Assembly: GCA_028281005.1 (NCBI GenBank)
Contig: JANQKS010000035.1
Span: forward strand, 1 to 34,608
Source: Pseudomonadales bacterium
GTDB lineage: Bacteria; Pseudomonadota; Gammaproteobacteria; Pseudomonadales; Azotimanducaceae
Direction: 5' to 3'
DNA length: 34,608 nt
Shown here: positions 7,863 through 29,193 of the stretch, piece by piece
Layout of the letters: each line of letters starts with the position of its first letter
Position numbering within the stretch: position 1 is the first letter of the stretch
Position numbers and translations under genes: made by a program
Notes under the pieces: generated by a model
Database searches by the model: none
Seen by the model: the letters and a program-made list of their open reading frames with translations, nothing else
What the model was told of the DNA's origin: nothing

Positions 7863-7863
7863 G

Positions 7864-9138
7864 TTAAGAACTCCGTGAGGTGTATGTTGCCGCGAGCGGA
7901 CGCGGCTGGTTCGCAAACACCATGTGTACGTCACTAATGGTGCGTTCCAAAAAGCCCCCTTCGCAGTATGAGAAGTAGAATTGCCACAGACGCTGAAAGC
8001 GGCGGTCGAAACCTAATTCCAGCAGCTGTTCCGCCACTGCCGAAAAATTCTCCGACCAGCAGCGCAACGTTTTAGCGTAGTCCAAGCCGATATCGTCCAA
8101 CCGCACCAACTTCATCGAGGAGGTGCGGGTAGCCGCGGTGACAAGCCTTGTTACCGAGGGTATAAAACTACCCGGGAAAATGTGTTTCTTGATGAAATCC
8201 ACTTCCTTCAATGCTTCCAGGTAGCGTTGGTCATCGATGGTGATGGCCTGCATGACAAATCGCCCGCCCGGGCGCAGCAGCGTTTCTACCTGGCTGAAAT
8301 AGCCGTCGACAAACTGGTCACCGACCGCTTCCACCATTTCCACCGACACCACCTTGTCGTATTCGCCGGTGAGATCGCGATAGTCTTTGAGCAGCAACTC
8401 TACTTTGTCCTGCAAGCCGGCCGCCGCAATGCGCGCCTTGGCCTCTGCATACTGCTGCTTGGAAATGGTGGTGGTGGTGACCTGGACGTCATAGTGTTGT
8501 GCGGCGTAGACCGCCAGTCCACCCCAGCCGGTACCAATCTCCAGCAAGTGATCACCCGGCTGAAGCTCCAACAACTCACATAACCTGGCCAGCTTGGCTT
8601 CACTGGCCTGATCTAAATCCCAATCGCTTTGTGCAAACACCGCGCTGGAATACATCATGCGTTGATCCAGCCAGAGGCGGAAAAAGTTGTTGCTCAAATC
8701 GTAATGGGCAGCGATGTTGCGCTGGCTACCTTTGCGCGTATTGGCATTACGCCAGTGTTGCAGCTTTTCCATCCCGTGTTTCAGCGACCGAGAGAAAGCG
8801 TTGTCCAAACCCTCCAGCGCCGACCGATTGGCCACCATCAGCCGAACTAACAAGGTTAAATCCGGTGTATCCCAGTCGCCGTCTGCATAAGCCTCACCGG
8901 CACCCACGGTACCGCCAAGTAACAAGCGCATGTAAAAACGCGAATCCTCCACCCGCACCACCGCAGGTGTGGCCGCGGGATCGCCGAAGCGCATCACTTG
9001 ACCGGCTTCGATGACGTGTAAGGCGCCGTGCTCAATCGCCTGCATGCTGTTCAGCACCACACGCCGCGCGGTTCGGTGCAGCCACGGTGATTTGAGATTT
9101 GCCGCCTCAGCGGATCGATGAGCTGTCTGGGTGAGCAT
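7864..9138 (-). CDS. CFA-synthase-family fatty acid methyltransferase
   Basis: This 424-aa protein is of the cyclopropane-fatty-acyl-phospholipid synthase family, which transfers a SAM methyl to unsaturated phospholipid acyl chains at the membrane. An N-terminal lipid-recruiting domain (about 1-135) precedes the catalytic domain with AHYDLSNNFF (144-153) and SAM loop LEIGTGWGG (199-207). Compared with E. coli Cfa, Glu239, Ile268 and Tyr317 are kept (Glu270, Ile299, Tyr354). Cys139 and His266, both bicarbonate ligands, are Ser165 and Gln297. That suggests a methyl or methylene product other than the ordinary cyclopropane. AAGGAG nine bases upstream supports ATG 9138, which overlaps the DUF1365 gene by 32 bases. 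Confidence 0.9.
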   Translation of the reverse strand: MLTQTAHRSAEAANLKSPWLHRTARRVVLNSMQAIEHGALHVIEAGQVMRFGDPAATPAVVRVEDSRFYMRLLLGGTVGAGEAYADGDWDTPDLTLLVRLMVANRSALEGLDNAFSRSLKHGMEKLQHWRNANTRKGSQRNIAAHYDLSNNFFRLWLDQRMMYSSAVFAQSDWDLDQASEAKLARLCELLELQPGDHLLEIGTGWGGLAVYAAQHYDVQVTTTTISKQQYAEAKARIAAAGLQDKVELLLKDYRDLTGEYDKVVSVEMVEAVGDQFVDGYFSQVETLLRPGGRFVMQAITIDDQRYLEALKEVDFIKKHIFPGSFIPSVTRLVTAATRTSSMKLVRLDDIGLDYAKTLRCWSENFSAVAEQLLELGFDRRFQRLWQFYFSYCEGGFLERTISDVHMVFANQPRPLAATYTSRSS

Positions 9139-9856
9139 AAAATTGCGCTCCTTTCAGTTTTAGTCGTGCAGCCTGGTAGTAGATGCGCGCCAGGGTCCGC
9201 AGGTTTTGCAAGGGGTAGGTCAAACGAAGTTTTAGCCCGAGCCATTTTGAAGTTGGCTGCGGTTTGAGATTTAGCGTCGCGAAAAACACCCGCTGTGACT
9301 GTTTAAACAGGTGCATATCGATATCGATCCGCTCCGCCGCCACCCGAAAACGCCAGTTGTAACGCAAACCCATCGGCATAAACGGAGACACGTGAAAAGT
9401 CTTGTCAAACGTCCAACTGTCACTGCCTTCACTACCTTCCTGCGCCAAAACATAGCAGTGGTCTTCATCCCAGGGGGTGTTGGTGATGTGCGCTACGATC
9501 CAACAAATTTGTTGTTCGCTGGTAACAAAATAGAAAGACACCGGATTGAAAGACCGCCCCACCATGCTGGGCTGAGTGAGCAGCCATATTGAATACGTGT
9601 CCCGCTGCAGGGGTGTATCAATCAAGGCTTCCAAACGCTCCCAGCTTAAATACTTGGACCAACGGGGACGCAGCCATCGGCTCAGCGTGCCAGCTTGACT
9701 GCGCCCGCTAGGCAAAGACGCTAACGCCATCCACACCGGGTACGTAAAGCCATGCTGCACATCAAAGTTGCGCCGATGCACAACGGTGCCTGCGAGCACC
9801 GCCTCGCGCAGCAGTTCTGGCGATGCTCCTCCGGATGCAGGTGCTTCAAGCGGCAC
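9107..9856 (-). CDS. DUF1365 domain protein
   Basis: This 249-aa protein is recognisable as DUF1365 from the GTVVHRR start region, the FxYPVWMAL segment, PVSFYFV and the closing LRTLARIYYQAARLK. DUF1365 proteins are nearly always encoded beside a CFA-type methyltransferase and a flavin amine-oxidase-like protein. They have been linked to singlet-oxygen-responsive lipid modification in alphaproteobacteria, and their biochemical step is still poorly defined. I chose GTG 9856 over ATG 9883 because GGGAGG lies six bases upstream and this start gives the usual family N-terminus. It overlaps the upstream flavoprotein gene by 11 bases, so translation is probably coupled. Confidence 0.88.
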   Translation of the reverse strand: MPLEAPASGGASPELLREAVLAGTVVHRRNFDVQHGFTYPVWMALASLPSGRSQAGTLSRWLRPRWSKYLSWERLEALIDTPLQRDTYSIWLLTQPSMVGRSFNPVSFYFVTSEQQICWIVAHITNTPWDEDHCYVLAQEGSEGSDSWTFDKTFHVSPFMPMGLRYNWRFRVAAERIDIDMHLFKQSQRVFFATLNLKPQPTSKWLGLKLRLTYPLQNLRTLARIYYQAARLKLKGAQFYAHPDSSSIR

Positions 9857-11102
9857 GCGACACCTCCCTTTGCAGCAGCGCATCCGCGGCGCGCAGGCCG
9901 CTCACGAAGCCATCCTCGTGAAAGCCTTTCCCCCAATAAGCCCCGGCAAACTGTGTGCGCTCGGTGGCAATCTCTGCGCCGCGTTGCTGAGCCGCAAACG
10001 AGGCACGGGTAAAGTGTGGATGTTGGTAGAAGCCTTGCCACCGCACTGTCCGTGGCACCCGCTGGGGATTGAGCGTGACAAAAAACTGCTCGTCGCACGG
10101 CAGATTTTGTAGCTTGTTCATCCAATAGGTGATGGTGTAGGCGCCGTCCGCCTCACGCACCACGTTCCAACTCGACCAGCATCGACGGTTGCGCGGCATA
10201 AACGAAACGTCTTCATGCAAATACACATGATTGTCCTGGTAGGGGATAGCCCCCAACACGTCATGCTCCGCTGCCGTGGCATCCGCCAGTAATCCCAGCG
10301 CCTGATCAGAATGACAAGCCAGGACCACCCCATCATAACGCGCATTACCCGTGGCCAGCTGCAGCTCCACACCGGTTGCGGTGCGATGAATTGCGGCCAC
10401 ATCTGCCCGTAGCTGTACGCCGCCTGCAAATTGTTGTTGAAAAGCGCCCAGATAGGCCGAGGAGCCACCGCACACCACACGCCACTGCGGGCGGTCGGTT
10501 ATGTTGAGCATCTTGTGATGACGCATAAATGCCACGACGTGGCGCAAGGCGAGCTGCAGACTTTCCTGCGCCGGCTGCGACCACAGCGCAGCGCACATCG
10601 GCGCCATGTGACTGTGCACAAAGGCAGCGCCATAGTTGTGCGCCTCAAGGTAAGCACCTAACGTGGTGTCCTCAATGTCGCCGGCGTCCAACTTTCGGTA
10701 AAACCGCAGTAAATCTCGCCACATTTGCCAGTAGGCCGGCCGCACCAGCTGCCCGTAATTCGCCAAGATTGCGCGCAAGTTGGTGGTGCCGTACTCCAAG
10801 TGGGCAATGTCATCGCGCACCGCAAAACTCATGTCAGACGCTTGCGAGGCCACCCCAAGCTCGTTTAACCAAGCGCTGAAATGGGGATAGTTGTAGTTGT
10901 TAAAGACGATGAAGCCGGTGTCCACTTCAACCGTGGTGTCCTGACCACCCGCAATGGGTAGAGTGTGCGTGTGGGTGTGGCCTCCGAGGCGATCACCTTT
11001 CTCATACAGATCCACGGTACAGCCCGCCTGCTGCAGCCGCCAGGCCGCCGCAATACCGGAAATTCCGGCGCCAACCACTGCCACTTTGAGCCCGCTGCTC
11101 AC
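9846..11102 (-). CDS. FAD-dependent amine-oxidase-like oxidoreductase
   Basis: This 418-aa flavoprotein has an N-terminal Rossmann dinucleotide motif GAGISG (11-16) and the NAD(P)-binding/amine-oxidase fold. It includes FIVFNNYNYPHF, typical of the group encoded with DUF1365 and CFA synthase. It probably acts on membrane acyl chains; related proteins have been connected with UfaD/UfaO-type steps of furan fatty acid synthesis, but I cannot say which reaction applies. The start is GTG 11102: its GTGA overlaps the desaturase TGA stop by four bases and AGGA lies about six bases upstream. The longer ATG frame (11147) would add an unrelated leader inside the desaturase gene. It is the second gene of the five-gene operon. 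Confidence 0.88.
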   Translation of the reverse strand: MSSGLKVAVVGAGISGIAAAWRLQQAGCTVDLYEKGDRLGGHTHTHTLPIAGGQDTTVEVDTGFIVFNNYNYPHFSAWLNELGVASQASDMSFAVRDDIAHLEYGTTNLRAILANYGQLVRPAYWQMWRDLLRFYRKLDAGDIEDTTLGAYLEAHNYGAAFVHSHMAPMCAALWSQPAQESLQLALRHVVAFMRHHKMLNITDRPQWRVVCGGSSAYLGAFQQQFAGGVQLRADVAAIHRTATGVELQLATGNARYDGVVLACHSDQALGLLADATAAEHDVLGAIPYQDNHVYLHEDVSFMPRNRRCWSSWNVVREADGAYTITYWMNKLQNLPCDEQFFVTLNPQRVPRTVRWQGFYQHPHFTRASFAAQQRGAEIATERTQFAGAYWGKGFHEDGFVSGLRAADALLQREVSRAA

Positions 11103-12001
11103 GATAAATCCTGCAACACCCGCGGCGGCGGTTCGCGAACGTCCCATATCAGACCCACGCTGGCCATCCCGCGCAACACGTAGTAGGACAAGTCAATTTG
11201 CCACCAGCGGAAACCCTGACGTGTCGACCCGCAATAATGGTGGTGATTGTTGTGCCAACCTTCACCCAGGGTAAGCAGCGCCAAGATGAGAGAATTGCGG
11301 CTGTCGTCTTCCGTGTCGTAGGTTCGGCGACCCCACCGATGCGCCAACGAGTTTATGCACAGCGTAATGTGCAGCAGCACCAGGGTGGACACTAAGAACC
11401 CCCAGAACAGCATTTGCAGCGCGGTGGTACCGGCCTGGGGGAACACTGTCTCCATCAGCAATCCAAATAGGTACACCAACACCGCCAGTCCCGCCGGGGA
11501 GGCGACGTCAAAGCGGTCAAGCCAAACCAGTTCGGGATATTTGGCTAAATCTCTCACCTGCCGGGTTTGGGTGGCAAAGTGTTTGTCGCACAAGATCCAG
11601 CCCATGTGGGACCACCAAAACCCCTTACGCGAGTTGTGGGGATCGCTTACCTCATCTGTGTGCCGATGGTGCTGACGGTGATGCGCCGCCCACCATAGAG
11701 GACCCCGCTGACCCGAAGACGCCGCCACCGATGCCCAGAAAAACTGATGGGCACGTGAGGTTTTGAACGACTTATGTGAAAAGTAACGGTGGTAAAACCC
11801 GGTAATCGCAAACATGCGCAACAGATACAAGAACAGTGCAACCGCTATATCCACCAGGGCGATGTCAAAAATAAACACACCCACCAGCGCAGTCACGTGC
11901 AGCGCTATGATCGGCACCACACGCAGCCATGCGATGTTTTCGTCTTCACTTTGCGGTTGAATACGGTAGGAATCTACCCACGATATGACTTGCGACCACA
12001 T
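11099..12001 (-). CDS. Membrane fatty acid (acyl-CoA) desaturase
   Basis: This 300-aa di-iron membrane desaturase has all three histidine boxes: HRYFSH (71-76), HHRQHH (107-112) and HNNHHH (250-255). Hydrophobic segments near 28-65 and 165-215 give the usual four-helix topology with a cytosolic active site. The pattern is that of delta-9 acyl-CoA or acyl-lipid desaturases, which insert a cis double bond using O2 and an electron donor such as ferredoxin or cytochrome b5. It is the first gene of the lipid operon, so it could supply the unsaturated chains that the downstream methyltransferases and flavoprotein modify. Position selectivity cannot be read from sequence. Confidence 0.93.
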   Translation of the reverse strand: MWSQVISWVDSYRIQPQSEDENIAWLRVVPIIALHVTALVGVFIFDIALVDIAVALFLYLLRMFAITGFYHRYFSHKSFKTSRAHQFFWASVAASSGQRGPLWWAAHHRQHHRHTDEVSDPHNSRKGFWWSHMGWILCDKHFATQTRQVRDLAKYPELVWLDRFDVASPAGLAVLVYLFGLLMETVFPQAGTTALQMLFWGFLVSTLVLLHITLCINSLAHRWGRRTYDTEDDSRNSLILALLTLGEGWHNNHHHYCGSTRQGFRWWQIDLSYYVLRGMASVGLIWDVREPPPRVLQDLS

Positions 12002-12176
12002 GACCTAGCGCTGATTACCAAACTTGGATTGCACGATGCCATATTCCTTTGCGCTCCGTGAAGCGCATGTCAACACAGGCAATGCCGCATTCACCGGCAG
12101 TTCACACGTTGTTGATCGACGGGCCACTATCCTACAGCGCATCTTTCCTCACGCTTTAATTTAAGGAGTAAAGCCA
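12002..12176. promoter_or_regulatory. Divergent control region, desaturase operon / photolyase
   Basis: This 175-bp spacer must hold the promoters for both the minus-strand lipid operon and the plus-strand photolyase. A small dyad is present: GCGCT at 12051-12055 and AGCGC at 12062-12066, six bases apart, which could be an operator. I found no convincing sigma-70 pair for either direction. In other proteobacteria, photolyase plus CFA/DUF1365 genes are controlled by light or singlet oxygen through an ECF sigma factor with ChrR, or by a MerR-type regulator. No such regulator is encoded in this window. Confidence 0.4.
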
Positions 12177-13607
12177 GTGCGGCAATTGGTCTGGTTTCGA
12201 AACGATTTGCGGGTGGCAGACCACCCGGCATTGCACGCAGCCACCGGCAACGGCCAAACAATCGCTTGCTACTGTATTTGCACCGCCCAGTGGCGCAGCC
12301 ACGACATGGGGGATCGGCGTATTGCCTTCCAACAACGCGCGTTGCGGGCGTTAAGTGCGGAGCTCGCTGAACTCAACATTCCCCTTCTCATCCTGCATAC
12401 GCCGACATTTGCCGATGTATCAGCCGCGCTGTTAGCCCTGTGCAATCAGCATGAAGTTGCTAACGTCCACTTTAATGACGAGTATCCGCTCAACGAACGC
12501 CGGCGCGACCTGGCGGTTGAACAAGACTTAACCGCGGCGGGGATCCCAGTGCAGCGTTATACCGCCGACACTCTGTTTGCGCCCGGTACTTTACTTACCA
12601 GTGGCAACAAACCGTACACGGTGTTTTCGCCATTTTTTAAGCAATGGCGCAATCGCCTCGAGCAACACATGGGGCAACCGCTGCCTGCACCTCAGACGCA
12701 AAGTCCCAGCAACATTTCTTCAGACCCAATCCCCGAATCTTGGGATGGCGTATGCGCCGACCTGGCGGCCGAGCAGTGGCCGGCGGATGAAGCGACGGCA
12801 CAACGCACGTTGTTTAACTTTGCCGATGAGCGTATGGCCAACTACGGTACGCGACGCGACATTCCGTCCGAGCCCGGCACCAGCGGCTTGTCCGCTCATC
12901 TCGCCATCGGCACCGTCTCAGCACGGACCTGTGTCGCCACCGCACTGAAACTGAAAGCTGGCCACGCGGACAGTGACAGCGGTGCGGAAAAGTGGATCGC
13001 GGAACTGGCCTGGCGGGACTTCTACCGCCATATCGTCGCGCTGTTTGATCATGTCAATTACGGCTTTTCCTTCAAACGAGACTACGACCGGCTGCAATGG
13101 CGTGTTGCGCCGGATGAGCTTGAGGCTTGGCAACGTGGAGAAACAGGTTATCCCCTGGTGGACGCCGGCATGCGTCAGCTGCGCGAAATCGGCTGGATGC
13201 ACAACCGCGTGCGTATGGTCACCGCGATGTTCCTGACTAAACATCTGCTGATCGATTGGCGTGAAGGTGAGCGTTACTTCATGCAGCAGCTGGTGGACGG
13301 AGACTTCCCTTCCAACAACGGTGGCTGGCAGTGGAGCGCCTCGGTGGGTACGGATGCAGCGCCCTACTTCCGCATATTTAACCCGGCCAGCCAAGGTGAA
13401 CGTTTTGACCCCAAGGGTATTTATGTTAAACGTTGGGTAGCTGAACTTGACGCAGTTTCGGCACGGCAATTGTTTAAGGCGCCGTTGTCTACACCCGCCG
13501 CAAGCCAAGGTGATCTGTTGGCCGAAGAAGTCACTTATCCCGCTCCCATTGTGGACCATAAAGCCGCACGCGAACGCGCGCTGGCTTTTTTCAAAGGTGA
13601 TGACTAG
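12177..13607 (+). CDS. phrB: Class I deoxyribodipyrimidine photolyase
   Basis: This 476-aa flavoprotein repairs UV cyclobutane pyrimidine dimers using blue light. The N-terminal antenna domain begins with the hallmark LVWFRNDLR, and the C-terminal FAD domain has WRDFYRH, RQLREIGWMHNRVRM and NNGGWQWSASVGTD, including tryptophans of the electron-transfer chain. The length matches E. coli PhrB (472 aa). The start is GTG 12177, with AAGGAG (12163-12168) eight bases upstream. It is divergent from the lipid operon, which fits a shared response to light. It could in principle be a related cryptochrome, but the sequence looks like a bona fide CPD photolyase. Confidence 0.94.
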   Translation: MRQLVWFRNDLRVADHPALHAATGNGQTIACYCICTAQWRSHDMGDRRIAFQQRALRALSAELAELNIPLLILHTPTFADVSAALLALCNQHEVANVHFNDEYPLNERRRDLAVEQDLTAAGIPVQRYTADTLFAPGTLLTSGNKPYTVFSPFFKQWRNRLEQHMGQPLPAPQTQSPSNISSDPIPESWDGVCADLAAEQWPADEATAQRTLFNFADERMANYGTRRDIPSEPGTSGLSAHLAIGTVSARTCVATALKLKAGHADSDSGAEKWIAELAWRDFYRHIVALFDHVNYGFSFKRDYDRLQWRVAPDELEAWQRGETGYPLVDAGMRQLREIGWMHNRVRMVTAMFLTKHLLIDWREGERYFMQQLVDGDFPSNNGGWQWSASVGTDAAPYFRIFNPASQGERFDPKGIYVKRWVAELDAVSARQLFKAPLSTPAASQGDLLAEEVTYPAPIVDHKAARERALAFFKGDD

Positions 13608-13647: not shown

Positions 13648-15147
13648 TCACGTAGCCGCTAGGCGCTCACGCAGCTCAAACTTTTTGACTTTACCCATGG
13701 CGTTACGCGGCAGCACATCGTAGATGCGCACCTGGCGCGGGTGTTTATAGCGCGCCAACCGTTCTTCGAATCTTTCAAGCAGGGCCGTCTCGGGGATTGC
13801 CATACCCTCCTTAAACACCACGCAGGCCACCGGCGACTCACCCCACCTTGGATCCGGGCGGCCAACCACGGCATATTCCGCCAATTCCGGCATATCGGCG
13901 AGGACGTTTTCCAACTCCGCAGGGTAGATGTTCTCTCCGCCGGAGATGATGACGTCTTTTTTCCGGTCATCTACATAATAAAAGCCTTCGGCATCGGTAT
14001 GACCAAGATCACCGGTAAGAAACCACTCCCCGTCGAAAGAGGCCGCCGTTAACTCCGGTTCGGCAAAATATTCACTCAACAGATTGGGTCCGCGCAGCTG
14101 TATTTCACCGACTTCGCCAGGCGCCGCCACACTGCCGTCGTTCTTAATGATGCGCGCTTCACAATGCATGGCCGATTTACCCGCGGCACCCAGCTTGGTT
14201 TGAGTGTCCGCAATGGGTAGGCAAATGGCCGTGGGCGCGCTTTCGGTCATGCCGTAGATTTGCGTCGCAGGCACACCCCGGTCGTGCCAGGCATTGAGCA
14301 AAACATCCGGCACCGTCGAGGAGCCGGTGCCGACCATCCGTAAACAGGAAATATCGGTGTTATTCCACAATGGATGTTCCACCAAGGCCTGAATGACCGC
14401 AGGGACCGCCAGGAACATCGTCGGCCGCAGCGTTTGGATAGCTTGCAAAGTGACGCCGGGGTCAAATTTACGCAGCAGGGTGACCCGTGCGCCTACGTAA
14501 AACGCCGGTGTGGTTTGGATGTTTAAGCCACCGGAGTGAAATAGCGGCAGAACACCCAACACGTGGTCCAACGCGCGCATCTCTTGCGCGTGAATGGCGT
14601 TCAAAGCGTTGTAAAACAGCGCCCGTTGTCGATGCACCACACCCTTAGGATTCCCCGTTGTGCCAGAGGTGTAGATCAACAACACCTCGTCATCAAGCCC
14701 ACCACGGTCCGCAAAAGGCTGTGCATCCACCTGAGCCAGGGTGTCGAGGTATTCGCCCTCGAGATCTATCGCCTGCAGGCCGGCAAGATCCTCCGCCAAT
14801 TGCCGCGCGGTGTCCGCAAATTCTTGTTCATAAAACAGATGTGACGCACCCGCGTGATCCAGGATCCAACGGTGTTCTCCCAGCGCCAGTCGATTATTGA
14901 GGGGCATCAGTGAACAGTTGACCCGGGCGCAGGCAAACAACAGCAGTATCAATTCACAGGAGTTAAAACCTAACACCGCAACGTGATCACCCGCTTTTAC
15001 ACCAAACTGCTCGACCAGCAGGTGACAACGTCGCGTTACCGCGTCATCCATCTGCGCGTAGGTATAACTCTGGTCATCCAACGCCAGGGCTTGTCGATTT
15101 CCTGCCCAATTGGCGTTGTAACGAATCCAGTCCCCGAGTCCGTTCAC
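13648..15147 (-). CDS. Class I adenylate-forming acyl-CoA ligase
   Basis: This 499-aa protein is of the acyl/aryl-CoA synthetase (ANL) superfamily, which activates a carboxylate with ATP and then forms the CoA thioester. Motifs in order are the P-loop YTSGTTGNPKG (159-169), YGMTESAPT, the hinge-region TGDLGHTD, KKDVIISGGENIYPAELE, and the C-terminal catalytic lysine in MGKVKKFELRE. It is the last gene of the NicX-like operon: its ATG overlaps the stop of the acyl-CoA-dehydrogenase-like gene by four bases (ATGA), so the two are co-translated. The acid it activates is probably a ring-cleavage product or the operon's starting substrate. Chain-length or aromatic preference is not evident. Confidence 0.9.
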   Translation of the reverse strand: MNGLGDWIRYNANWAGNRQALALDDQSYTYAQMDDAVTRRCHLLVEQFGVKAGDHVAVLGFNSCELILLLFACARVNCSLMPLNNRLALGEHRWILDHAGASHLFYEQEFADTARQLAEDLAGLQAIDLEGEYLDTLAQVDAQPFADRGGLDDEVLLIYTSGTTGNPKGVVHRQRALFYNALNAIHAQEMRALDHVLGVLPLFHSGGLNIQTTPAFYVGARVTLLRKFDPGVTLQAIQTLRPTMFLAVPAVIQALVEHPLWNNTDISCLRMVGTGSSTVPDVLLNAWHDRGVPATQIYGMTESAPTAICLPIADTQTKLGAAGKSAMHCEARIIKNDGSVAAPGEVGEIQLRGPNLLSEYFAEPELTAASFDGEWFLTGDLGHTDAEGFYYVDDRKKDVIISGGENIYPAELENVLADMPELAEYAVVGRPDPRWGESPVACVVFKEGMAIPETALLERFEERLARYKHPRQVRIYDVLPRNAMGKVKKFELRERLAAT

Positions 15148-16352
15148 GGATAGTGTTCCGGGTGTTTAAGACTTTCCGCACCCAGCCGCTCAATACATAT
15201 GTCAGGCGTCCAGGGCAGCATCAGCGAGCCGCAGCGCGAATCGCGATACATTTGCTCTAAGCGTAGGTTTTTAAACAGAGAGCGGCCACCGCAAACGCGA
15301 ATCGCTTCACGGCACAGGTCATTGGCAAATTCCATGACCGTGTATTGCGCCGCATAAGCCCGCAAGCGCGCCTGAGGGGTAGGCTGGTAGCCTGCATCCT
15401 TGATGGCCCGTTCAAACAACGCTTCTGCCTGCTCCAGTTTGATGCGCATCTGCGCCACCGCCACCTGTTTAATTGGATTGTCGCGACTGCTGCTTGCCGG
15501 CGGTCCACCTGGAACCTGTCCATTTAAGTACTGACAAGTGAACGCAAACGCAGCACGTGCAATTCCCATATAGGTGGGACACAAGGTCATAAACATATGC
15601 GGCCAATCACGCGCCGCCTGGTAATACATGCCGGTGGGTAACATTTCCTGCTCCGCCGGGACAAACACATCGGTAAAGCGCAAGTTTTTCGACACGGTGC
15701 CGCGCATACCCAGCACATCCCAATCGCCAAACACCTCAAAACCAGGCGCATCCGCGGGAATCGCTAAGTACATAGTATTGGTGGCGGATGGCTCAGCATC
15801 CCCCGCCAAGGTACACAACACACCGTAAAAATTTGCGCTGCCTGCCAGGGAAGCAAAGTGTTTTTGGCCGTTTACCAGGTAGCCGCCTTCTACGGGTGTG
15901 GCGGTGGTGCCAAACGGCGCCTTGCCTGCAGCGGCCGCGCTGTTGGGTTCCGAAAAAGGTTGAGCAAACAACAGATCTTCCGCAATAACGCGCTCATAAA
16001 TGGCGGCACGCCGTTGGTGGTGTTGTTCGCGCTGATCCGCTGACATCGGCAATTGATCCGCCACCTGGCCGGACCACATCATGGTGGCGGTATGCATGTT
16101 AAATGTCAGCGCGGTAGTCCCGCACCAATAGCCAAGCTCCGCTGCGATGCGCGCATAGCTGGCGTAGTCCACACCCATACCGCCGTAGCGCTGCGGAATC
16201 ACCAACGCTAAAAACCCGGCTTGCGCCAGATCCTGATAGTTCTCCGTAGGGAACATACCCTGGCGATCATTGGCCGCCACACGGTCTAAGAATTTGTCAC
16301 GGCCTAACTCTCTGGCAATGCCGATGAGTTCTTGTTCTTGTGGTTTATCCAT
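15144..16352 (-). CDS. Acyl-CoA dehydrogenase-like flavoprotein
   Basis: This 402-aa protein has the acyl-CoA dehydrogenase fold: an N-terminal helical domain, a middle beta domain (YLVNGQKHFAS near 158-168, MRGTVSKNLRF near 216-226) and a C-terminal helical domain ending with YRDSR (369-373). In medium-chain enzymes the catalytic glutamate falls ten residues after that tyrosine, in a YEGT motif. Here that position is Leu379 within SLMLPW, and the alternative isovaleryl-type glutamate is not apparent either. It may therefore be a flavin monooxygenase or another non-dehydrogenase relative. ATG 16352 is preferred to ATG 16427 because AGGAAGAGG precedes it and the upstream hydrolase ends seven bases before it. 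Confidence 0.85.
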   Translation of the reverse strand: MDKPQEQELIGIARELGRDKFLDRVAANDRQGMFPTENYQDLAQAGFLALVIPQRYGGMGVDYASYARIAAELGYWCGTTALTFNMHTATMMWSGQVADQLPMSADQREQHHQRRAAIYERVIAEDLLFAQPFSEPNSAAAAGKAPFGTTATPVEGGYLVNGQKHFASLAGSANFYGVLCTLAGDAEPSATNTMYLAIPADAPGFEVFGDWDVLGMRGTVSKNLRFTDVFVPAEQEMLPTGMYYQAARDWPHMFMTLCPTYMGIARAAFAFTCQYLNGQVPGGPPASSSRDNPIKQVAVAQMRIKLEQAEALFERAIKDAGYQPTPQARLRAYAAQYTVMEFANDLCREAIRVCGGRSLFKNLRLEQMYRDSRCGSLMLPWTPDICIERLGAESLKHPEHYP

Positions 16353-16359
16353 CCTCTTC

Positions 16360-17166
16360 CTAATCCGATCCCGATGCTGCTGACGGTTCAAGAAAGTCCG
16401 CCAGCGCAGCCGTAAACAGCTGCGCACACTCTACATAAGCCAAGTGCCCCGCCGCGGGTAAACACTCGTATTGAGCGCCGGGTATTTGCTGGGCCATTTG
16501 CGCCAGGGCTTTAGCGGGTGCGGTTTTGTCAAACTCCGCCGCCAAACACAGGGTTGGCACGGTGATGTTAGGCAGCTTGTCAAAACAATCAAAGGTCACC
16601 AGGCATTCAATCACCTGGCGGTAAACGTCTGCGGGCAGCGGCGCCATGGTGGCGATCGCCTCATCAATCGCTACACCTTTACTGGCATCGTGAAACATGC
16701 CGGCAATCAAATCGCGGGCAAAATCTGCCGGAGCCAGACCTTGCTCCAGAGGCGCTAAACGCGCTGCCAGAAATTCCTGGTTCCATTCGCTCCCCGGCTT
16801 GCCGAAGCGCGCTGTGGTCTGCGCCAATATCAGTTTTTCGCAGCGTCCGCCTTGCGCATACCAAGCTTGCGCCACCATGCCGCCGAGACTGTGGCCAATG
16901 ACCGCCAAAGGTTGCGCCTGCAGGTGGGAGAGCAGGTTATCCACACACCGCGCCAGCACTGTAAAGTCCATCTGTTCGACGGGAGGTGAGCCGCCATAAC
17001 CCGGCACGTCCCAAGCAACACAGCGATAACGTGGCGACAACACCGCCAGCTGGTGATCAAAAGAATGTCGATTACCGCCCAAGCCATGCAGAAACAGCAG
17101 CAACGGCCCACTGCCCTGCTCCTTATAGGTCGGTAAATAGGGAGAGCTTGGCGAACTGTCAGTCAC
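16360..17166 (-). CDS. Alpha/beta hydrolase, PcaD/NicD-like
   Basis: This 268-aa alpha/beta hydrolase has oxyanion motif HGLGGN (27-32), nucleophile elbow GHSLGG with Ser93, an acid in AEFDKTAP, and catalytic histidine in AAGHLAYVE. It resembles 3-oxoadipate enol-lactonase (PcaD) and the N-formylmaleamate deformylase NicD. Its ATG overlaps the stop of the NicX-like gene by four bases, so the two proteins are made in step. In nicotinate degradation NicX opens the pyridine ring to an N-formyl amide and the hydrolase NicD removes formate, so a NicD-like role is the best inference from context. Homology alone does not distinguish it from other small esterases. Confidence 0.85.
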   Translation of the reverse strand: MTDSSPSSPYLPTYKEQGSGPLLLFLHGLGGNRHSFDHQLAVLSPRYRCVAWDVPGYGGSPPVEQMDFTVLARCVDNLLSHLQAQPLAVIGHSLGGMVAQAWYAQGGRCEKLILAQTTARFGKPGSEWNQEFLAARLAPLEQGLAPADFARDLIAGMFHDASKGVAIDEAIATMAPLPADVYRQVIECLVTFDCFDKLPNITVPTLCLAAEFDKTAPAKALAQMAQQIPGAQYECLPAAGHLAYVECAQLFTAALADFLEPSAASGSD

Positions 17167-18209
17167 GCAAGCTCACCTTGTAGCTCCCCCGCCGCTACCA
17201 CGGCCCGCCCATCCAAGCTGACCGTACAACCGCGCATGGGTAAATCGAAGTGCCCCAAGGTATGCCGACCGGCCACTTCATTGGCCCCGGTGGAGTAAAG
17301 GAAATTGCCGCCAAACGCGCGCAGCTCGGTCCCGTTAAAATCGTTTTTGTCGTACATGGTCATGGCGTCCCAGCGCGCACCTTTGTTCATGCCCCAACCC
17401 AGATGGCTAACCGCATACGCCTCTCGATCACCCCAGGCGGCAAAGTAACTGCGCATCAGATCCGCATCCACCCCATCGCCGACAATATCGGTAACGTAAT
17501 CATCGGTGATGGTGAGGGTAATCGGCGCATCTGCGTACCGTTTGAAGGTGAGGTTTACATCGCCGCGATCCAACACCAGGGTGCCGTTAACACTGCCCGC
17601 AACAGGGAAACACAAACACAAACCGCCCGGCCAGTGGCTGATTAAGCCTGGGCGTGACACGTACCCCCAACCGCCGCCGACCACAGCACCCTCTAACGAC
17701 ACCGCCAGGTTAGTACCGGCGTCCGACATCACTTGCATCTGCTTGGCACCGCGCAACATTTTCATGCCTGCCTTCACCTGGGTTTCCAGTTCTGGCGTCG
17801 GTTCGACCCGCTCGAGGGCTTCCGGATGCTCATTGGACACCATCAGCACCCGCGCGCCGCCTTTTAGAATTTGCGGGAGCTCCGGTGCGTGCAACATCCC
17901 TTCCACCGTGCAGTCGACGACAAAACCTGCGCTGGCTAAGGCGTTTATGACGGAACTGTTGTGCTGGATGACATCGGTTGCACCGGTCGAACGAACCGGC
18001 ACCGGTGCGGCTTGGGGCGGTGTGGGCACCACCACGTGGTAAGGTTTGGCGCCCAGGCGCAACAGCGCCAGCTCCGCCAGTTGGCGATTAATGGAACGCG
18101 ACTGGGTTTCGGAGATAATGGCGGCTTCTTCACCCGCTTGTACGTTACAACGCTCAAACACACGCGCAAAACAGTCGATCCATTTCCCTTCTATACGCTC
18201 CTGCAGCAC
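17163..18209 (-). CDS. NicX-like 2,5-dihydroxypyridine dioxygenase homologue
   Basis: This 348-aa protein resembles NicX (about 350 aa), the non-heme iron 2,5-dihydroxypyridine 5,6-dioxygenase, whose fold is related to M29 aminopeptidases. Matching blocks include SHWPGG, GTLVLDRGDV, AVSHLGWG, ARWDAM, RAFGGNFLYSTG and GHFDLPMRGC. The three Fe(II) ligands known in NicX (His, His, Asp) correspond to His269, His320 and Asp322 with near-identical spacing. Automated annotation may call it a leucyl aminopeptidase. GTG 18209 is chosen over ATG 18254 because GGGAGGG lies five bases upstream and the length then matches NicX. It heads the four-gene operon and diverges from the CYP153 gene. The ring substrate is unproven. 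Confidence 0.85.
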   Translation of the reverse strand: MLQERIEGKWIDCFARVFERCNVQAGEEAAIISETQSRSINRQLAELALLRLGAKPYHVVVPTPPQAAPVPVRSTGATDVIQHNSSVINALASAGFVVDCTVEGMLHAPELPQILKGGARVLMVSNEHPEALERVEPTPELETQVKAGMKMLRGAKQMQVMSDAGTNLAVSLEGAVVGGGWGYVSRPGLISHWPGGLCLCFPVAGSVNGTLVLDRGDVNLTFKRYADAPITLTITDDYVTDIVGDGVDADLMRSYFAAWGDREAYAVSHLGWGMNKGARWDAMTMYDKNDFNGTELRAFGGNFLYSTGANEVAGRHTLGHFDLPMRGCTVSLDGRAVVAAGELQGELA

Positions 18210-18429
18210 AACTACCCTCCCACTGAAAACATCTGAAAAAAGGACGCGTATCATAGCAGTCCACCGTGCCGATTTGCCCTGCGGCCTGGGTCACTTCTAC
18301 TCAAAATTTGTGCTGCGCGGCACTCAGGCTGACGCTGGTTTTCTTCTATACTGTAACTGTGGCTTTCCCTATGGCGCACCGGCGCTAGCTCGAACCAACA
18401 CCGGGGCTGAACCACTTGAGGAGAACAGC
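18210..18429. promoter_or_regulatory. Divergent promoter region, NicX-like operon / CYP153
   Basis: This 220-bp spacer separates two divergent transcription units. On the plus strand TATACT (18347-18352) is a good -10, but no strong -35 lies at the right spacing, so an activator may be needed. On the minus strand the complement of 18250-18255 reads TATGAT, about 40 bases upstream of the NicX-like GTG. A long upstream extension of the P450 frame covers this stretch but has no ribosome site or family similarity. A shared regulator binding between the two is plausible; none is encoded nearby. Confidence 0.4.
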
Positions 18430-19689
18430 ATGAACATCACCGCCGACCAAGCCGCCCAGGCAAACGCCACTGCCTTGGAAGACATTGACGTCAGCCGACC
18501 GGAACTTTTTGGTGATGACACGTGGCGCCCGTGGTTTGCGCGTTTACGCAAAGAAGCCCCCGTCCACTATCTGGCAGACAGTGTCAATGGTTCGTTCTGG
18601 TCGGTCACCTCACATGACCTGATAAAACAGGTGGATTCCAACAACACGGTGTTCTCCTCGGAGAAGAAAGGTATCGCCATCGTTGATCCCGTTCCCGTAG
18701 AAGGTCAGATTCAAGGCCGCAATTTCATTTCCATGGATGAACCGGAACACGCTAAGCAACGCAGCGCAGTGACGCCGGTGGTGGCGCCTAGAAATCTGGC
18801 CGAACTGGAACCCCTAATCCGCGAACGCGCCGTCGACATTCTGGAAAACCTGCCAGTCGGTGAAACCTTCAACTGGGTGCAGGAAGTATCGGTGGAGCTC
18901 ACCGCACGTATGCTCGCTACGCTGTTTGACTTTCCTTATGAAGAGCGCCGCAAACTGATCCATTGGTCAGACATCACCACCAACATCCCTCAGGTCACCG
19001 GCGACGACAGCATCGACATGCAGGGGCGTTACGACGAGCTGATGGAGTGCGCGGGTGCGTTCTACCAACTGTGGATGTCAAAACTGGGGCAACCGGCCTC
19101 GTTTGATCTGATTTCTTTGCTGCAGAACAACCCTGAAACAGCAAACATGAACGAAGACCCGGAACTGTTCCTCGGTAATTTGCTGCTGTTGATTGTGGGC
19201 GGCAACGATACCACCCGCAACAGCATCAGCGGCGGCATACTGGCGCTAAATCAGTACCCGGACGAATATCAGAAGCTGCGGGACAACCCTAAGCTCATCC
19301 CCAACATGGTGTCGGAGATGGTGCGCTGGCAAACGCCGGTCATACACATGCGCCGCACCGCCTTGCAAGATGTAGAACTGGGCGGCCAACAGATCAAAGA
19401 AGGTGACAAGGTGGTCATGTGGTATCTCTCGGGCAATCGCGACGAAAACATCTTCCCCGACGCAGACCGCCTGATTATCGACCGGCCTAACGCGCGTGCG
19501 CACGTCTCATTCGGTTTCGGTGTACACCGCTGTATGGGCAACCGCCTGGCTGAAATGCAACTGCGAGTACTGTGGGAAGAAATTATGCAGCGCTTTCACA
19601 CGGTTGAGGTGGCCGGCGATATAGAGCGTCTACCCAACAACTTCATCCGCGGCATCAAAGAAGTACCGGTACGTTTACACCCGCTCTAG
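18430..19689 (+). CDS. Cytochrome P450, CYP153 family
   Basis: This 419-aa soluble P450 closely resembles CYP153, bacterial terminal hydroxylases of alkanes, fatty acids and other aliphatic chains. It has VVAPRNLAELEP near 117, the I-helix GGNDTT (257-262), ExxR at Glu296-Arg299, and the heme loop FGFGVHRCMGNRLAE with Cys368. ATG 18430 is supported by GAGGAG (18418-18423) six bases upstream and gives the normal family length. CYP153 enzymes need a [2Fe-2S] ferredoxin and a flavin reductase; neither is encoded in this window. It is divergent from the NicX-like operon, which suggests the two act on the same compound or its alkyl side chain. Confidence 0.93.
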   Translation: MNITADQAAQANATALEDIDVSRPELFGDDTWRPWFARLRKEAPVHYLADSVNGSFWSVTSHDLIKQVDSNNTVFSSEKKGIAIVDPVPVEGQIQGRNFISMDEPEHAKQRSAVTPVVAPRNLAELEPLIRERAVDILENLPVGETFNWVQEVSVELTARMLATLFDFPYEERRKLIHWSDITTNIPQVTGDDSIDMQGRYDELMECAGAFYQLWMSKLGQPASFDLISLLQNNPETANMNEDPELFLGNLLLLIVGGNDTTRNSISGGILALNQYPDEYQKLRDNPKLIPNMVSEMVRWQTPVIHMRRTALQDVELGGQQIKEGDKVVMWYLSGNRDENIFPDADRLIIDRPNARAHVSFGFGVHRCMGNRLAEMQLRVLWEEIMQRFHTVEVAGDIERLPNNFIRGIKEVPVRLHPL

Positions 19690-19726: not shown

Positions 19727-19756
19727 CGTTTCTAACCAGCCCGTTTCTAACCAGCA
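19727..19756. repeat. 15-bp tandem duplication at a gene end
   Basis: The 14-base sequence CGTTTCTAACCAGC occurs at 19727-19740 and again at 19742-19755, a period of 15. The stop codon of the amidohydrolase on the minus strand (TAG, 19747-19749) lies in the second copy. It is probably a slippage duplication in the tail between the P450 and amidohydrolase genes; no hairpin terminator is visible here. Confidence 0.6.
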
Positions 19757-21414
19757 CCGCGCAACAAGCGCCCCGGCATGGCACCGGTGTGCTCACCGAA
19801 CTCGTAGGTGACCTCACCACCACACAACGTATAGGCATAGCCTTCGGCTTTTTGCAGCAGGCGTTTACCACCGGCCGGCAGGTCGTAGGCCATTTCCGGC
19901 TGCTGTAGCTTGAGCGCTTCAAAGTCGATCACGTTGAGGTCTGCCTTAAAACCCGGCGCCACCACGCCGCGATCGTGAAGGCCGTACAAGCGCGCAGTGT
20001 CCTGGCTGAGTTTATGCACCACAAAGGGTAATGACATGCGCGGGCCGCGCCGCCGGTCTCGGGCAAAATAGCTCAACATATAGGTGGACACACTGGCATC
20101 GACCAGCACGCCGCAGTGAGCGCCGCCGTCCGACAGGCCAAACACGCTATAAGGATCCTCTATGACGCGTCGCTGCCCCTCGAGGTCATCGGTATAACCA
20201 CGGAAGAACACCAACAGCGGTGTGCCCGCAGCCATGGCATCCATCATCACTTCCAGCGGATCAACACCCTGCGCTGCGGCTAAACCGGCAATGGAATCTG
20301 CCCTGGTAGGCTCGTAGGAGAGTTGTTCATCCATAACATAGATGTGTTCGTAGTCATTCATAAAACGCTGGGCATCACGATTGCGCGGCAGCATTTTCTC
20401 TTCGTTGAGCACGCGGGCCCGAAAGGCCGGTTCCAGTAAAGCCGCGCGACGCTGCGCCAGCGGCTGGTCTTGGATTTCCCGATAGGCGGGATGCTGGCGC
20501 ATGGGATTGATGGTGCCTTCCAACGTCATGAGGATCGAAGCCGGACGTGCTCCCACTTGGGGCCGCAACGTCAAGTTGTCCTGGGCCAGACGTTCCGCTA
20601 ACGACCATATTTTACCGCGCCCGGTGGTCGCCAACGCGGTGATCGGGCGTTTAGTGGTACGCACAATGTGTTCTATCCACGACAGTTCTGCGTCGTCTTC
20701 CAAATGATCCGAGATGATTTCGATGGTGCCGTGCTGCAACCCGGCAAACGCGTCACCAATTTTGCACATCTCTTCCGCGGACGCGTTGGTGCCCGGGACC
20801 AGATTTCCGGCTTTATCGACATGGCCATAAAAACGCGAAGTGGAAAACCCCAGGGCACCCGCCTGCAAGCCTTCTCGGGTGAGGTCGCGCATGTGTTCCA
20901 TATCCGTCGGAGTGGCATCGTCATAACAACGATCCCCCATCACGTAGTGGCGGATCGCCACGTGGGGGACCTGCGCCCCCACGTCCATGACATAAGGTGT
21001 GTCGATGGCATCAAGATATTCCGGAAAGCTCTCCCAACCCCAGGAGATGCCTTCATGCAGAGCGGTGCCGGGGATGTCTTCGACACTTTCCATCAGTGCG
21101 ACCAATTCATCTTCGGTACCCGGGCGGACCGGCGCAAAACCCACACCGCAGTTACCCATGACAATGGAGGTGACACCATGCCAACAGCTCGGTGTCACTT
21201 GTTTGTCCCAACAAACTTGGCCGTCGTAGTGGGTATGGATGTCAACAAAACCAGGGGTGACTAACTTGCCATCCGCGTCGATGGTGCGCTTCGCCGTGCC
21301 CAGATCATGACCAACCGCGGCAATTTTGCCGTCTTGAATCGCCACATCGGCGTCAAACGGATCAGCGTTGGTGCCATCCACCACGCGGCCATGCTTTATC
21401 AAAACGTCGTACAT
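19747..21414 (-). CDS. D-aminoacylase-type amidohydrolase (paralogue 1)
   Basis: This 555-aa metal-dependent amidohydrolase is related to N-acyl-D-amino-acid deacylases. It has the beta-strand HTHYD with His60 and His62, and GNCGVGF with the metal-bridging Cys89. A conserved ISDHLEDD carries one further histidine, and [10 protein letters not shown] provides the catalytic aspartate. The SHHK motif that carries a zinc ligand in characterised D-aminoacylases reads ITALATTG here, so the true substrate may differ. ATG 21414 is used because GGGGAAGG lies five bases upstream; the longer frame to 21558 runs into the divergent P450 gene. It is a clear paralogue of the amidohydrolase at 24353, which keeps the same MGNCGVGF and [16 protein letters not shown] segments. 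Confidence 0.87.
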
Positions 21415-21461
21415 GCTAACCTTCCCCTGCATAGAATGTGGCAAGGTGGAGATCTTACTAT

Positions 21462-22700
21462 ATGCAAAGTCCCTCAGGAAAACGGCTGACCGCGGCGGAT
21501 CCGCAATTTCGCGACGACCCCCATGCGGCTTACGACATCTTGCGTACAAGCCCAACACCTGTGGCCATCGAAGACTATGGCTGCGCCTTTGTCACCCGCC
21601 ACCAGCAAGTGCTGCAAGGGTTAAAAGAGCGCAGCTTCAGCGTCGATGCACGCAATGCCGCGGAGCTTTCATATATGCGGCGGGTGGCGGGTACCGGCGT
21701 CAAAGAGAGCCAAGGTGACGCCGCTTATGAACCGCCGCTGGTATTGTTGGATGACCCGGCGCACCGCCACATTCGCGGATTGGTCAGCAAAGCTTTTAAC
21801 CCCAACACCATCGAAGCCATGCGTCCACGCGTGGAACACATTACCGCCGACCTGCTCGACGCCATCGAGGGCCGCTCACAGATCGACTTCATCGCTGATT
21901 TTGCGGGTCCGCTGCCAACCATGGTTATTCTCGACATGATGGGATTGCCGCTGACGCACAGCGCTAATTTTAAGCGCTGGTCTGAGGAAATTCTGTGGGG
22001 GTACGACCCCCAACGAGATCGCGCCACCCAAACCCGTTTACGTGAAGCCTACATCGGTATGGCGGCCGTGTTTCGTCAGGCCCTGGAGGACCGCCGCGTA
22101 AATCCAGGTGACGATTTGATATCCGCCCTGGTACAGGCACGCGAAGCGGATGCCAGCCTCAGTGAGTTACAGATCATCAGCTTGTGTACACAATTGATGG
22201 TAGCCGGCAACGTCACCACCACGGACCTCATGGGTAACGGTTTGTTTGCGTTGCTGCAGCACGCGCAGCAACTCAACTGGCTGCTGCAAAACCCCCAGGC
22301 CATTAGCGGCGCCGTAGAAGAAATGTTGCGCTTTGACTGCCCGATTACGGAGACCGCGCGCATCGCCCGCGAAGACATCGAGTTTGCCGGTTGCCCGGTC
22401 CACAGCGGCGACACAATGACGCTGTCGCTGGCCGCTGCCAATCGCGACCCAGAGGTGTTCCCTGAGCCGCACGTGTTTGACGTGCAACGCAAAGCGGACA
22501 CCCACCTCGGCTTCGGCAGCGGCATTCACCTCTGCCTGGGCGCGCCGCTGGCACGTATGGAGACTCAAATTGGCATAGGCAGCTTCTTGGCCCGCTTTGG
22601 CGAGGGCTTGCAGCTGCAGGCTGATACGGCGCCGCGACGGCGCGCATTGCCGTTTTTCCGTGGTTTCGACACGTTGCCGCTTACGCTGGCCAGTGCATAA
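21462..22700 (+). CDS. Cytochrome P450 with atypical I-helix
   Basis: This 412-aa bacterial class I P450 has ExxR at Glu287-Arg290 and the heme loop FGSGIHLCLGAPLAR with Cys358. The I-helix reads AGNVTTT (248-254). Most P450s have an acidic residue directly before the conserved threonine (AGxET or AGxDT), and here it is Val251, so the usual proton-relay acid is missing. It is not a CYP153 and its substrate is unknown. ATG 21462 is chosen because AGGTGGAG lies ten bases upstream; an in-frame GTG at 21438 is an alternative. Only 47 bases separate it from the divergent amidohydrolase, and it leads a probable operon with the PLP enzyme and second amidohydrolase. Confidence 0.9.
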   Translation: MQSPSGKRLTAADPQFRDDPHAAYDILRTSPTPVAIEDYGCAFVTRHQQVLQGLKERSFSVDARNAAELSYMRRVAGTGVKESQGDAAYEPPLVLLDDPAHRHIRGLVSKAFNPNTIEAMRPRVEHITADLLDAIEGRSQIDFIADFAGPLPTMVILDMMGLPLTHSANFKRWSEEILWGYDPQRDRATQTRLREAYIGMAAVFRQALEDRRVNPGDDLISALVQAREADASLSELQIISLCTQLMVAGNVTTTDLMGNGLFALLQHAQQLNWLLQNPQAISGAVEEMLRFDCPITETARIAREDIEFAGCPVHSGDTMTLSLAAANRDPEVFPEPHVFDVQRKADTHLGFGSGIHLCLGAPLARMETQIGIGSFLARFGEGLQLQADTAPRRRALPFFRGFDTLPLTLASA

Positions 22701-24352: not shown

Positions 24353-26077
24353 ATGTACGACTACGATCTGATAGTAAAAAACGGCCTTATTGTCGATGGC
24401 AGCGGCAAGCCGGCCCGCCAAGGTGACATCGCCGTTAAAGACGGCCGCATTGTTTCCATGGCACCGGCCGCGGACGCCACTGCCGCGCGCACCATCGATG
24501 CCAACGGCAAAATAGTGACCCCCGGTTTTGTGGACGTGCACACCCACTATGACGGCCAAGCCACTTGGGATGAGCATCTGGCACCGTCGTCCAATCTCGG
24601 CACCACCACCGTGGTGATGGGCAACTGTGGGGTTGGCTTCGCGCCGTGCCGCAGCGCAGACCACGATGTGCTGGTGCAACTAATGGAAGGGGTGGAAGAA
24701 ATCCCCGGCACTGCGCTGGTGGAAGGTATCCCGTGGAATTGGGAGTCGTTCCCCGAGTACCTCGATGCCATCGATGCCCGGCACCACGACATCGACGTGG
24801 CGGTATTGATGCCCCACGGCCCGCTGCGGGTGTTTGTCATGGGTGAACGCGGCGTAAATCGCGAGCCAGCCACCGCAGAAGATATAGAAGCCATGCAGCA
24901 TTATATCCGTGAAGCGCTGGACGCAGGTGCGGTGGGTTTTTCAACCTCTCGTACGCTGGTGCACCGCAGCAGCAGCGGTGAGTACATTCCCACCTATCGG
25001 GCCGCCACCGAAGAGTTAAAACAGCTGGGCGAAGCTTTGTCCGGTGACGCCGGCCACGTCTTCCAATTGATCTCCGACTGGGAAGACGCGGAAGACGAAT
25101 TCGACATTTTGCGAGAAACCAGCCGCAGAACCGGCGCCAAGGGTACGTTTACCTTGCTCGACTTAAAAACCACCGGCGCCACCGGCCTGCCGCTGTGGGA
25201 AGAACATTTGCAACGCATTGAAGATGCACAAGCCAACGGCTTAGACATTCGCGGCCAAGTCTTGTCGCGTCCCGTGGGTATGCTGATGGGCCATCCCGCC
25301 TCGATGAGCAGCTTTTCACGCCGGCCAACCTTTGTGGAGCTAGAGCAACTGCCTGACGCTGAGCGCTTCGCCGAGATGGCGAAACCCGAGGTGAAAGCCA
25401 AAATCTTGAGCGAAGAGAACGTTAACCCGCACATGTTTGTGCGCATTTTCGAACAGCGCTTCGACACCATGTATCCGTTGGAAGAACCCATCAACTACTT
25501 GCCGGCGAAAGAAGATTCCGTGGCGGCCCAGGCGGCGGCTGCGGGGCAGGATGCCGAAGAGTGGTTATACGACTACTTCCTGGGCAACGAGGGCAAAAAC
25601 CTCATCTACATCCCCGCCGCAAATTTCTCCGAACACATACCGGACATGCTGAGCCATCCGAACACCGTGGTCGCCCTTGGCGACGGCGGTGCGCACGTTG
25701 GCTCAATTTGTGACACCAGCGCCAACGTGTATGTGCTCACCAAGTGGGTCAAAGAAAAGCAGGCGATTGAGCTGCCGGCGGCGATCCACATGCTCACCCG
25801 GCAACCCGCGGAGCTGTACTCCCTGCTTGATCGCGGCTTGCTGGCGGAGGGTATGGTGGCGGACTTAAACGTGATTGATTTCGACAGTTTGGCGTTACGA
25901 ACGCCACACATCGTGGCCGACCTGCCTGCCGGTGGCAGCCGCTTCCTGCAGGGTGCCGACGGGCTTGAACTGACCATTAAATCCGGTGAAGTGATCTACG
26001 AAAATGGCGCGCTCACCGACGCTTTGCCCGGGCAGTTGCTGCGCGGCGCCCAGGCGGATCCGCGCGCCAGCGCCTAA
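24353..26077 (+). CDS. D-aminoacylase-type amidohydrolase (paralogue 2)
   Basis: This 574-aa amidohydrolase is of the N-acyl-D-amino-acid deacylase family. It has HTHYD with His63 and His65, GNCGVGF with Cys92, and a C-terminal GDGGAHVG holding the aspartate. It parallels the gene at 19747 over its whole length. Here the SDHLED segment of that paralogue reads ISDWEDAED, so a histidine kept there is a tryptophan, and the SHHK zinc motif is again missing. The two paralogues may therefore have different substrates. No signal peptide is visible, so it should be cytosolic. GGGAG precedes the ATG. Its stop overlaps the converging PhyH-type gene by four bases. Confidence 0.87.
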   Translation: MYDYDLIVKNGLIVDGSGKPARQGDIAVKDGRIVSMAPAADATAARTIDANGKIVTPGFVDVHTHYDGQATWDEHLAPSSNLGTTTVVMGNCGVGFAPCRSADHDVLVQLMEGVEEIPGTALVEGIPWNWESFPEYLDAIDARHHDIDVAVLMPHGPLRVFVMGERGVNREPATAEDIEAMQHYIREALDAGAVGFSTSRTLVHRSSSGEYIPTYRAATEELKQLGEALSGDAGHVFQLISDWEDAEDEFDILRETSRRTGAKGTFTLLDLKTTGATGLPLWEEHLQRIEDAQANGLDIRGQVLSRPVGMLMGHPASMSSFSRRPTFVELEQLPDAERFAEMAKPEVKAKILSEENVNPHMFVRIFEQRFDTMYPLEEPINYLPAKEDSVAAQAAAAGQDAEEWLYDYFLGNEGKNLIYIPAANFSEHIPDMLSHPNTVVALGDGGAHVGSICDTSANVYVLTKWVKEKQAIELPAAIHMLTRQPAELYSLLDRGLLAEGMVADLNVIDFDSLALRTPHIVADLPAGGSRFLQGADGLELTIKSGEVIYENGALTDALPGQLLRGAQADPRASA

Positions 26078-29157: not shown

Positions 29158-29193
29158 CCAGCGCCACTAAGCGTCTGAGAGGAGCGTTAAACC

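Follow-up and report, generated by a model that had tools for sequence, protein, structure and literature searches.

Do genes of the NicX family that carry aminopeptidase labels encode peptidases or ring-cleaving dioxygenases and, in the latter case, which ring is opened? The question is raised by a NicX-like gene (17163..18209, minus strand) in a stretch of 34,608 nucleotides from a Pseudomonadales bacterium of the family Azotimanducaceae (GenBank assembly GCA_028281005.1, contig JANQKS010000035.1), hereafter the window. The encoded protein of 348 amino acids (aa) is predicted to have the NicX fold with a complete iron site, and it belongs to a separate branch of the family in which a substrate-binding residue of NicX, Glu177, is lost, a Glu-Gly pair is inserted (hence EG type) and the partner genes are different. 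Thus, with its changed substrate pocket, it probably opens another ring, that is, it is probably a NicX-fold Fe(II) ring-cleaving dioxygenase of an unassigned aerobic pathway, whose substrate is not plain 2,5-dihydroxypyridine. The initial annotation had reported a NicX-type ring-cleaving dioxygenase hidden behind an aminopeptidase-like label. That observation is confirmed, with the correction that the label is carried by annotated relatives, the window itself being without annotation. The cautious inference drawn there, an unassigned enzyme cleaving pyridines or other N-heterocycles, was largely right: its ring-cleavage part is strengthened by the lost Glu177 and the different conserved neighbors, and its pyridine or N-heterocycle part found no support. 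The Glu177 loss, the Glu-Gly insertion and the conserved neighbors of the EG-type branch are new here, the first of these having been overlooked together with the fact that the adjoining alpha/beta hydrolase is not close to NicD.

Among solved proteins, NicX alone is a convincing relative in sequence, and in fold it leads by a wide margin. A phmmer comparison of the NicX-like protein with NicX (PDB 7cn3) gave an E-value of 6.6e-59, the sole other row lying at 1.3, and a 53-sequence profile of relatives matched 7cn3 at 3.9e-79, with the next row at 0.31. The predicted model superposes on NicX over the full length (TM 0.91, 1.9 Å, about 36% identity), an indirect answer to the proposed check that the metal-site residues cluster, and by this full-length fold and the four aligned iron ligands the predicted protein falls within the NicX fold in the broad sense. 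The profile test against M29 peptidases that had been proposed upheld this assignment: the Pfam model Peptidase_M29 (PF02073) did not match the protein (E up to 1). Nor did any other Pfam or NCBIfam model match it convincingly, and the same holds for two NicX-type controls, L122 (Pantoea) and NdpE, so that a missing family match is uninformative by itself. The M29 model does find matches in control genomes (4 of 14), and it finds none in the own genome. Because the silence of the family models is shared by the controls, the choice of NicX over M29 rests more on the silence of the M29 model in the own genome and on NicX being the closest solved sequence and fold. The M29 structures AmpT, AmpS and PepS (PDB 2ayi, 1zjc and 4icq) align with the model at a TM of at most 0.65, 4.0–4.7 Å and 12–13% identity. 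Thus, the sequence comparisons and the predicted model support a NicX-type fold with a complete iron site rather than an M29 peptidase. The labels of relatives point elsewhere: "peptidase M29" is that of the sole annotated EG-type member seen (Ensifer adhaerens), and "leucyl aminopeptidase" is that of several NicX-type or more distant NicX-family proteins. Homology to metallo-aminopeptidases is stated in PMC7356986 for NicX and for HpdF, the 2,5-dihydroxypyridine dioxygenase of the 2-hydroxypyridine pathway, which we liken to the present protein by that description only.

The active site was compared with that of NicX from Pseudomonas putida KT2440 (PDB 7cn3, 7cnt and 7cup), for which PMC7910607 describes, by mutation, an iron held by His265, Ser302, His318 and Asp320 and lost in R293A; and Glu177 and His189 as binding the substrate 2,5-dihydroxypyridine, with 2.7% of activity retained in E177A. 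We aligned 102 members of the EG-type branch with 22 NicX-type proteins; L124 (Gln177, another type), L163 and L164 (23–27% identity) and L146 (a split gene, too short to align) were dropped before the count of 102, and haloarchaeal and further plasmid relatives stand outside both counts. The triad named in the initial annotation, His269 (codon 17403..17405), His320 (17250..17252) and Asp322 (17244..17246), aligns with NicX His265, His318 and Asp320, and Ser306 (17292..17294) aligns with the fourth ligand, Ser302 (all codons here and below on the minus strand). Each of the four is invariant in 102/102 EG-type members, and all are likewise retained in the 22 NicX-type proteins. Arg297, the counterpart of NicX Arg293, is conserved in the branch, and His192 (17634..17636), aligned with substrate-binding His189, is His in 101 members and Ser in one.

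The substrate side of the pocket is different. Gly180 (17670..17672) stands in place of Glu177, a residue present in 22/22 NicX-type proteins and 0/102 branch members, where the position is occupied by Gly (60), Val (28), Thr (7), Asn (4) or Ser (3). Thus, in the alignment, the protein has the His189 but lacks the Glu177 of a 2,5-dihydroxypyridine 5,6-dioxygenase. Conversely, Glu103-Gly104 (17898..17903) forms a two-residue insertion found in 102/102 branch members and 0/22 NicX-type proteins, adjoining the Leu104-His105 loop that changes the channel of NicX, and other pocket-side residues also differ consistently between the two groups. At the position of NicX Glu308 the alignments disagree, MAFFT giving other residues and HMMER giving Glu311, invariant in 53 sequences. 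It is plausible from these alignments that the active-site carboxylate has moved within the pocket, Glu103 taking over from Glu177, and the swap of Glu177 for Glu-Gly offers a simple signature for mending annotations and picking substrates. A tree of 72 rows places 49 EG-type members on one side of a split (support 100/100, stem 1.39) and, on the other, the 22 rows that have Glu177 together with L124, which has Gln177; a caveat is that long branches meet at this split. NdpE of Sphingobium xenophagum (annotated) belongs to the same family and has the same iron ligands; unlike the protein studied here, it has Glu177, lacks the insertion and sits among the nicotine-pathway ndp genes.

The NicX-like gene is the first of four closely spaced minus-strand genes, followed by those for an alpha/beta hydrolase (16360..17166, overlapping it by 4 bases), an acyl-CoA-dehydrogenase-like flavoprotein (15144..16355; the open reading frame [ORF] runs from 16427, and the ATG at 16355 was chosen as the likely start) and an AMP-forming acyl-CoA ligase (13648..15147, overlapping the flavoprotein gene by 4 bases). 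We compared 102 EG-type loci (this window, 80 from GTDB, two on plasmids and 19 from further genomes) with 21 NicX-type loci. The GTDB loci are the 80 best out of at least 573, which over-represents near relatives among the 102; 18 of the 19 further-genome loci come from a sample of Pseudomonadota, and the same residues were seen there. Neighbors within 6 kb were counted by assigning each ORF to its best-hit query, maps with shadow ORFs were not used, and contig ends shorten some of the 102 loci. The hydrolase was found in 75 EG-type loci, the flavoprotein in 74 and the ligase in 82; at least one was present in 99 and all three in 54. By contrast with the NicX-type loci, which hold NicF (19 of 21), NicD (19), NicE (18) and NicC (14), one flavoprotein-like gene and no EG-type hydrolase or ligase, the EG-type loci hold no NicD or NicF, one NicE and four NicC-like genes. 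A NicA/B-type molybdenum hydroxylase was found anywhere in the locus in 17/21 NicX-type and 0/102 EG-type loci, and the NicX-like gene has a flavin reductase within 500 bases in 27/102 EG-type loci (within 8 kb in 41/102), against 0/21 NicX-type loci.

In this window the best matches among the queries were only the hydrolase, flavoprotein and ligase, with no NicD, NicE, NicF or molybdenum hydroxylase. The absence of nic genes from the window had been the reason first given for leaving the enzyme unassigned; it is weak alone, a nic-gene context of 2,5-dihydroxypyridine dioxygenases being usual and not obligatory, and it gains weight with the 102 relatives. The Pantoea NicE query gave no match in the own genome, a search without positive control; used in blastp, it did pick up NicE in most of the NicX-type loci. 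The NicF query gave one weak match (30% identity, E 2.6e-9). The hydrolase is no near relative of NicD (pairwise E 8e-5, 27% identity across 81 aa), and its Ser93, Asp213 and His241 are present at 95% or more in 67 sequences. In the flavoprotein, Leu404 stands where the usual dehydrogenase catalytic Glu is expected, in 73/73 sequences, a place assigned manually, beyond the point where the printed alignments stop, from what we take to be the catalytic-Glu motif of ordinary acyl-CoA dehydrogenases. This replacement, together with the flavin reductase linkage, favors a putative two-component monooxygenase. The closest solved relative of the flavoprotein, 5gj7/5z8t, bears no more specific name than "acyl-CoA dehydrogenase type 2 domain protein."

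Computation shows the fold, the intact iron site, the Glu177 loss and the conserved partners; beyond these we infer dioxygenase chemistry, a substrate that is not plain 2,5-dihydroxypyridine, a monooxygenase role for the flavoprotein and the following order of steps. Supplied by a flavin reductase, the acyl-CoA-dehydrogenase-like flavoprotein would hydroxylate an aromatic or heteroaromatic acid. The NicX-like mononuclear non-heme Fe(II) enzyme would then insert O2 and open the ring, and the alpha/beta hydrolase would cut the ring-opened product as a deformylase, an amidase or a C-C hydrolase. The ligase would form a CoA thioester either before or after ring opening. The steroid-ring module HsaA-HsaB-HsaC-HsaD likewise combines a flavin monooxygenase and its reductase, Fe(II)-dependent ring cleavage and an alpha/beta hydrolase, and the fold of HsaC differs from that of NicX. 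This module is probably the closest analogy for the four-gene unit, with similar step logic but with a NicX-fold cleaver and an added CoA ligase in the present case; among NCBIfam models, those for HsaA and HsaD match the partner genes, though weakly.

Taken as a whole, we give about even chances to the following reading: several bacterial phyla share a previously undescribed aerobic catabolic pathway whose ring-opening step, set between a flavin monooxygenase and a CoA ligase, is carried out by a NicX-fold dioxygenase. The active-site carboxylate of this enzyme would be relocated (Glu103 for Glu177), and its substrate would be some ring that is not 2,5-dihydroxypyridine, perhaps an N-substituted pyridone or a ring linked to CoA. 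A haloarchaeal EG-type gene on a Natribaculum longum plasmid (L171) supports ring chemistry for this type: its neighbors are a Rieske ring-hydroxylating oxygenase, a glyoxalase-fold protein, a CN-hydrolase and a NicF-like protein, and it is possibly part of an archaeal ring-degradation locus. Several points weigh against the preferred reading, a ring-cleaving dioxygenase for another substrate with the partners in the roles given above. Of the EG-type loci, 75/102, among them this window, lack a flavin reductase within 500 bases, and the sole flavin reductase found in the own genome is unlinked and at most 42% identical to those of the operons. Most actinobacterial EG-type loci show the ligase alone nearby, which means that the branch does not always have the four-gene unit. 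The flavoprotein might be a dehydrogenase whose base sits at another position. Finally, Glu103 might restore binding of 2,5-dihydroxypyridine, and the NicF-like neighbor of L171 (38–41% identity) fits a NicX-like pathway.

The last two points belong to the alternative that survives best, namely that the protein is a genuine 2,5-dihydroxypyridine 5,6-dioxygenase in which Glu103 stands in for Glu177, the later steps being carried out by unrelated hydrolases. The branch does retain the iron site and His192, and, across the 102 and 22 sequences, Glu103 is gained in exactly those that have lost Glu177. We nevertheless consider this unlikely in view of the near-complete lack of NicD, NicF, NicE (a single case) and molybdenum hydroxylase in the 102 loci, of the control-less NicE negative in the own genome and of the consistently different pocket-side residues. 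Quite unlikely, too, is a NicX-fold iron enzyme of another chemistry within CoA-linked degradation, for example a C-C cleaving oxygenase that does not act on rings, or a hydrolase: here the conservation of the iron ligands and also of His192 and Arg297, as in a ring-cleaving enzyme, and the flavin reductase linkage, which fits aromatic hydroxylation, have to be set against the CoA ligase being the commonest partner (82/102 loci), an acyl-CoA-dehydrogenase-like partner that could act on a CoA thioester, and the variability of position 180. The M29-type aminopeptidase suggested by the labels of some relatives is very improbable, given how much worse than NicX the M29 structures align (TM at most 0.65 against 0.91; at least 4.0 Å against 1.9 Å) and given a Pfam M29 model that misses the protein though it finds matches in control genomes.

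For the dioxygenase acting on another ring, which we prefer, we considered an N-methylpyridine substrate such as homarine or trigonelline, since the loss of Glu177 might make room for an N-substituent; this is speculation, and a literature search on these substrates gave no support. Reading the substrate from neighboring transporters was rejected, as the types beside EG-type loci vary by lineage (TRAP and TctC types, ABC transporters, an APC permease). The operon of Ensifer adhaerens also holds a glutamine-synthetase-family gene, a flavin reductase and an APC permease, and a glutamine-synthetase-like gene is added in rhizobial EG-type loci (7/102). A cupin gene lies near two rhizobial loci (L142 and L144) and a fumarylacetoacetate-hydrolase gene near L144. 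No description of this operon was found in the open literature, subscription papers lying mostly outside the search. A peptidase-labelled ring-cleaving step would point to an unrecognised route for the degradation of natural N-heterocycles or aromatics.

In an even sample of 398 Pseudomonadota genomes, 36 contain a match to the NicX-like protein: 19 at 55% identity or more, including this one, 16 at 34–44%, with one genome belonging to both of these sets, and two weak. The 34–44% relatives are of the NicX type, all with Glu177 in the loci examined from 15 of those 16 genomes. Thus, the EG-type branch is about as common as NicX in this sample. Within the genus of this genome, 7 of 37 genomes match, one with the gene split in two and one at 49%; the split gene (L146) consists of two overlapping ORFs and reflects either a pseudogene or a sequencing error. 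The GTDB loci of the branch include Acidimicrobiia and one metagenome-assembled genome of Methylomirabilota, and this patchy spread suggests horizontal transfer.

Relatives outside the two counts occur in further contexts. Those of Thioclava (L124) and Neorhizobium (L177) have Gln177 and no insertion, and that of Peribacillus (L173) has Glu177. L124 lies beside 4-hydroxyphenylacetate-hydroxylase-type, flavin reductase and isochorismatase-family genes, L173 beside a 4-hydroxyphenylacetate-hydroxylase-type gene, and a flavin reductase adjoins L177; these three possibly form a third functional group. In the alignment, Leu occupies the position of NicX Arg293 in three relatives (L124, L175 and L177). 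Two haloarchaeal relatives have the Glu-Gly insertion with Glu177 replaced (by Gln and Ser), and His189 is lost as well.

The NicX-like ORF, present in one copy in the own genome, is intact, and its strand, which the initial annotation had not given, is minus. The longest ORF called mechanically has 363 aa, with an ATG at 18254. The GTG start of the 348-aa form is favored by GGGAGGG, a ribosome-binding-like sequence just upstream (18215..18221, minus strand), and by the start codons of relatives at the same residue (ATG in 9/10 and GTG in 1/10 of the relatives with aligned starts printed). A cytochrome P450 ORF on the other strand (18046-19689, plus; SolI is the model that scores best, at 422 bits where the cut-off is 850) overlaps the gene by its mechanical TTG start; the ATG at 18430, after ggagaa, looks like the real start.

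Elsewhere in the window, two Amidohydro_3 genes (19747-21558, minus, and 24353-26077, plus) flank another P450 and a protein that has an Ala_racemase_N domain and begins in a Tat-like manner. A luciferase-like monooxygenase fragment (6490-6840, plus) is a 116-aa ORF covering profile positions 179-249 of 314. Genes for a desaturase, an amine-oxidase-like protein, a DUF1365 protein and two CMAS proteins follow in a row (6837-13607), adjoined by a photolyase gene. An ORF of 1176 aa (1478-5008, minus) contains TPP-enzyme, POR and DUF6537 domains, a set that we take to be that of fused indolepyruvate ferredoxin oxidoreductases, and a gene for an AsnC/Lrp-family regulator adjoins it. Additionally, a HAD phosphatase gene, an ORF that matches no Pfam model and a gene of the alpha-amylase family stand in a row at 28345-32089, resembling a compatible-solute cluster of the glucosylglycerate type.
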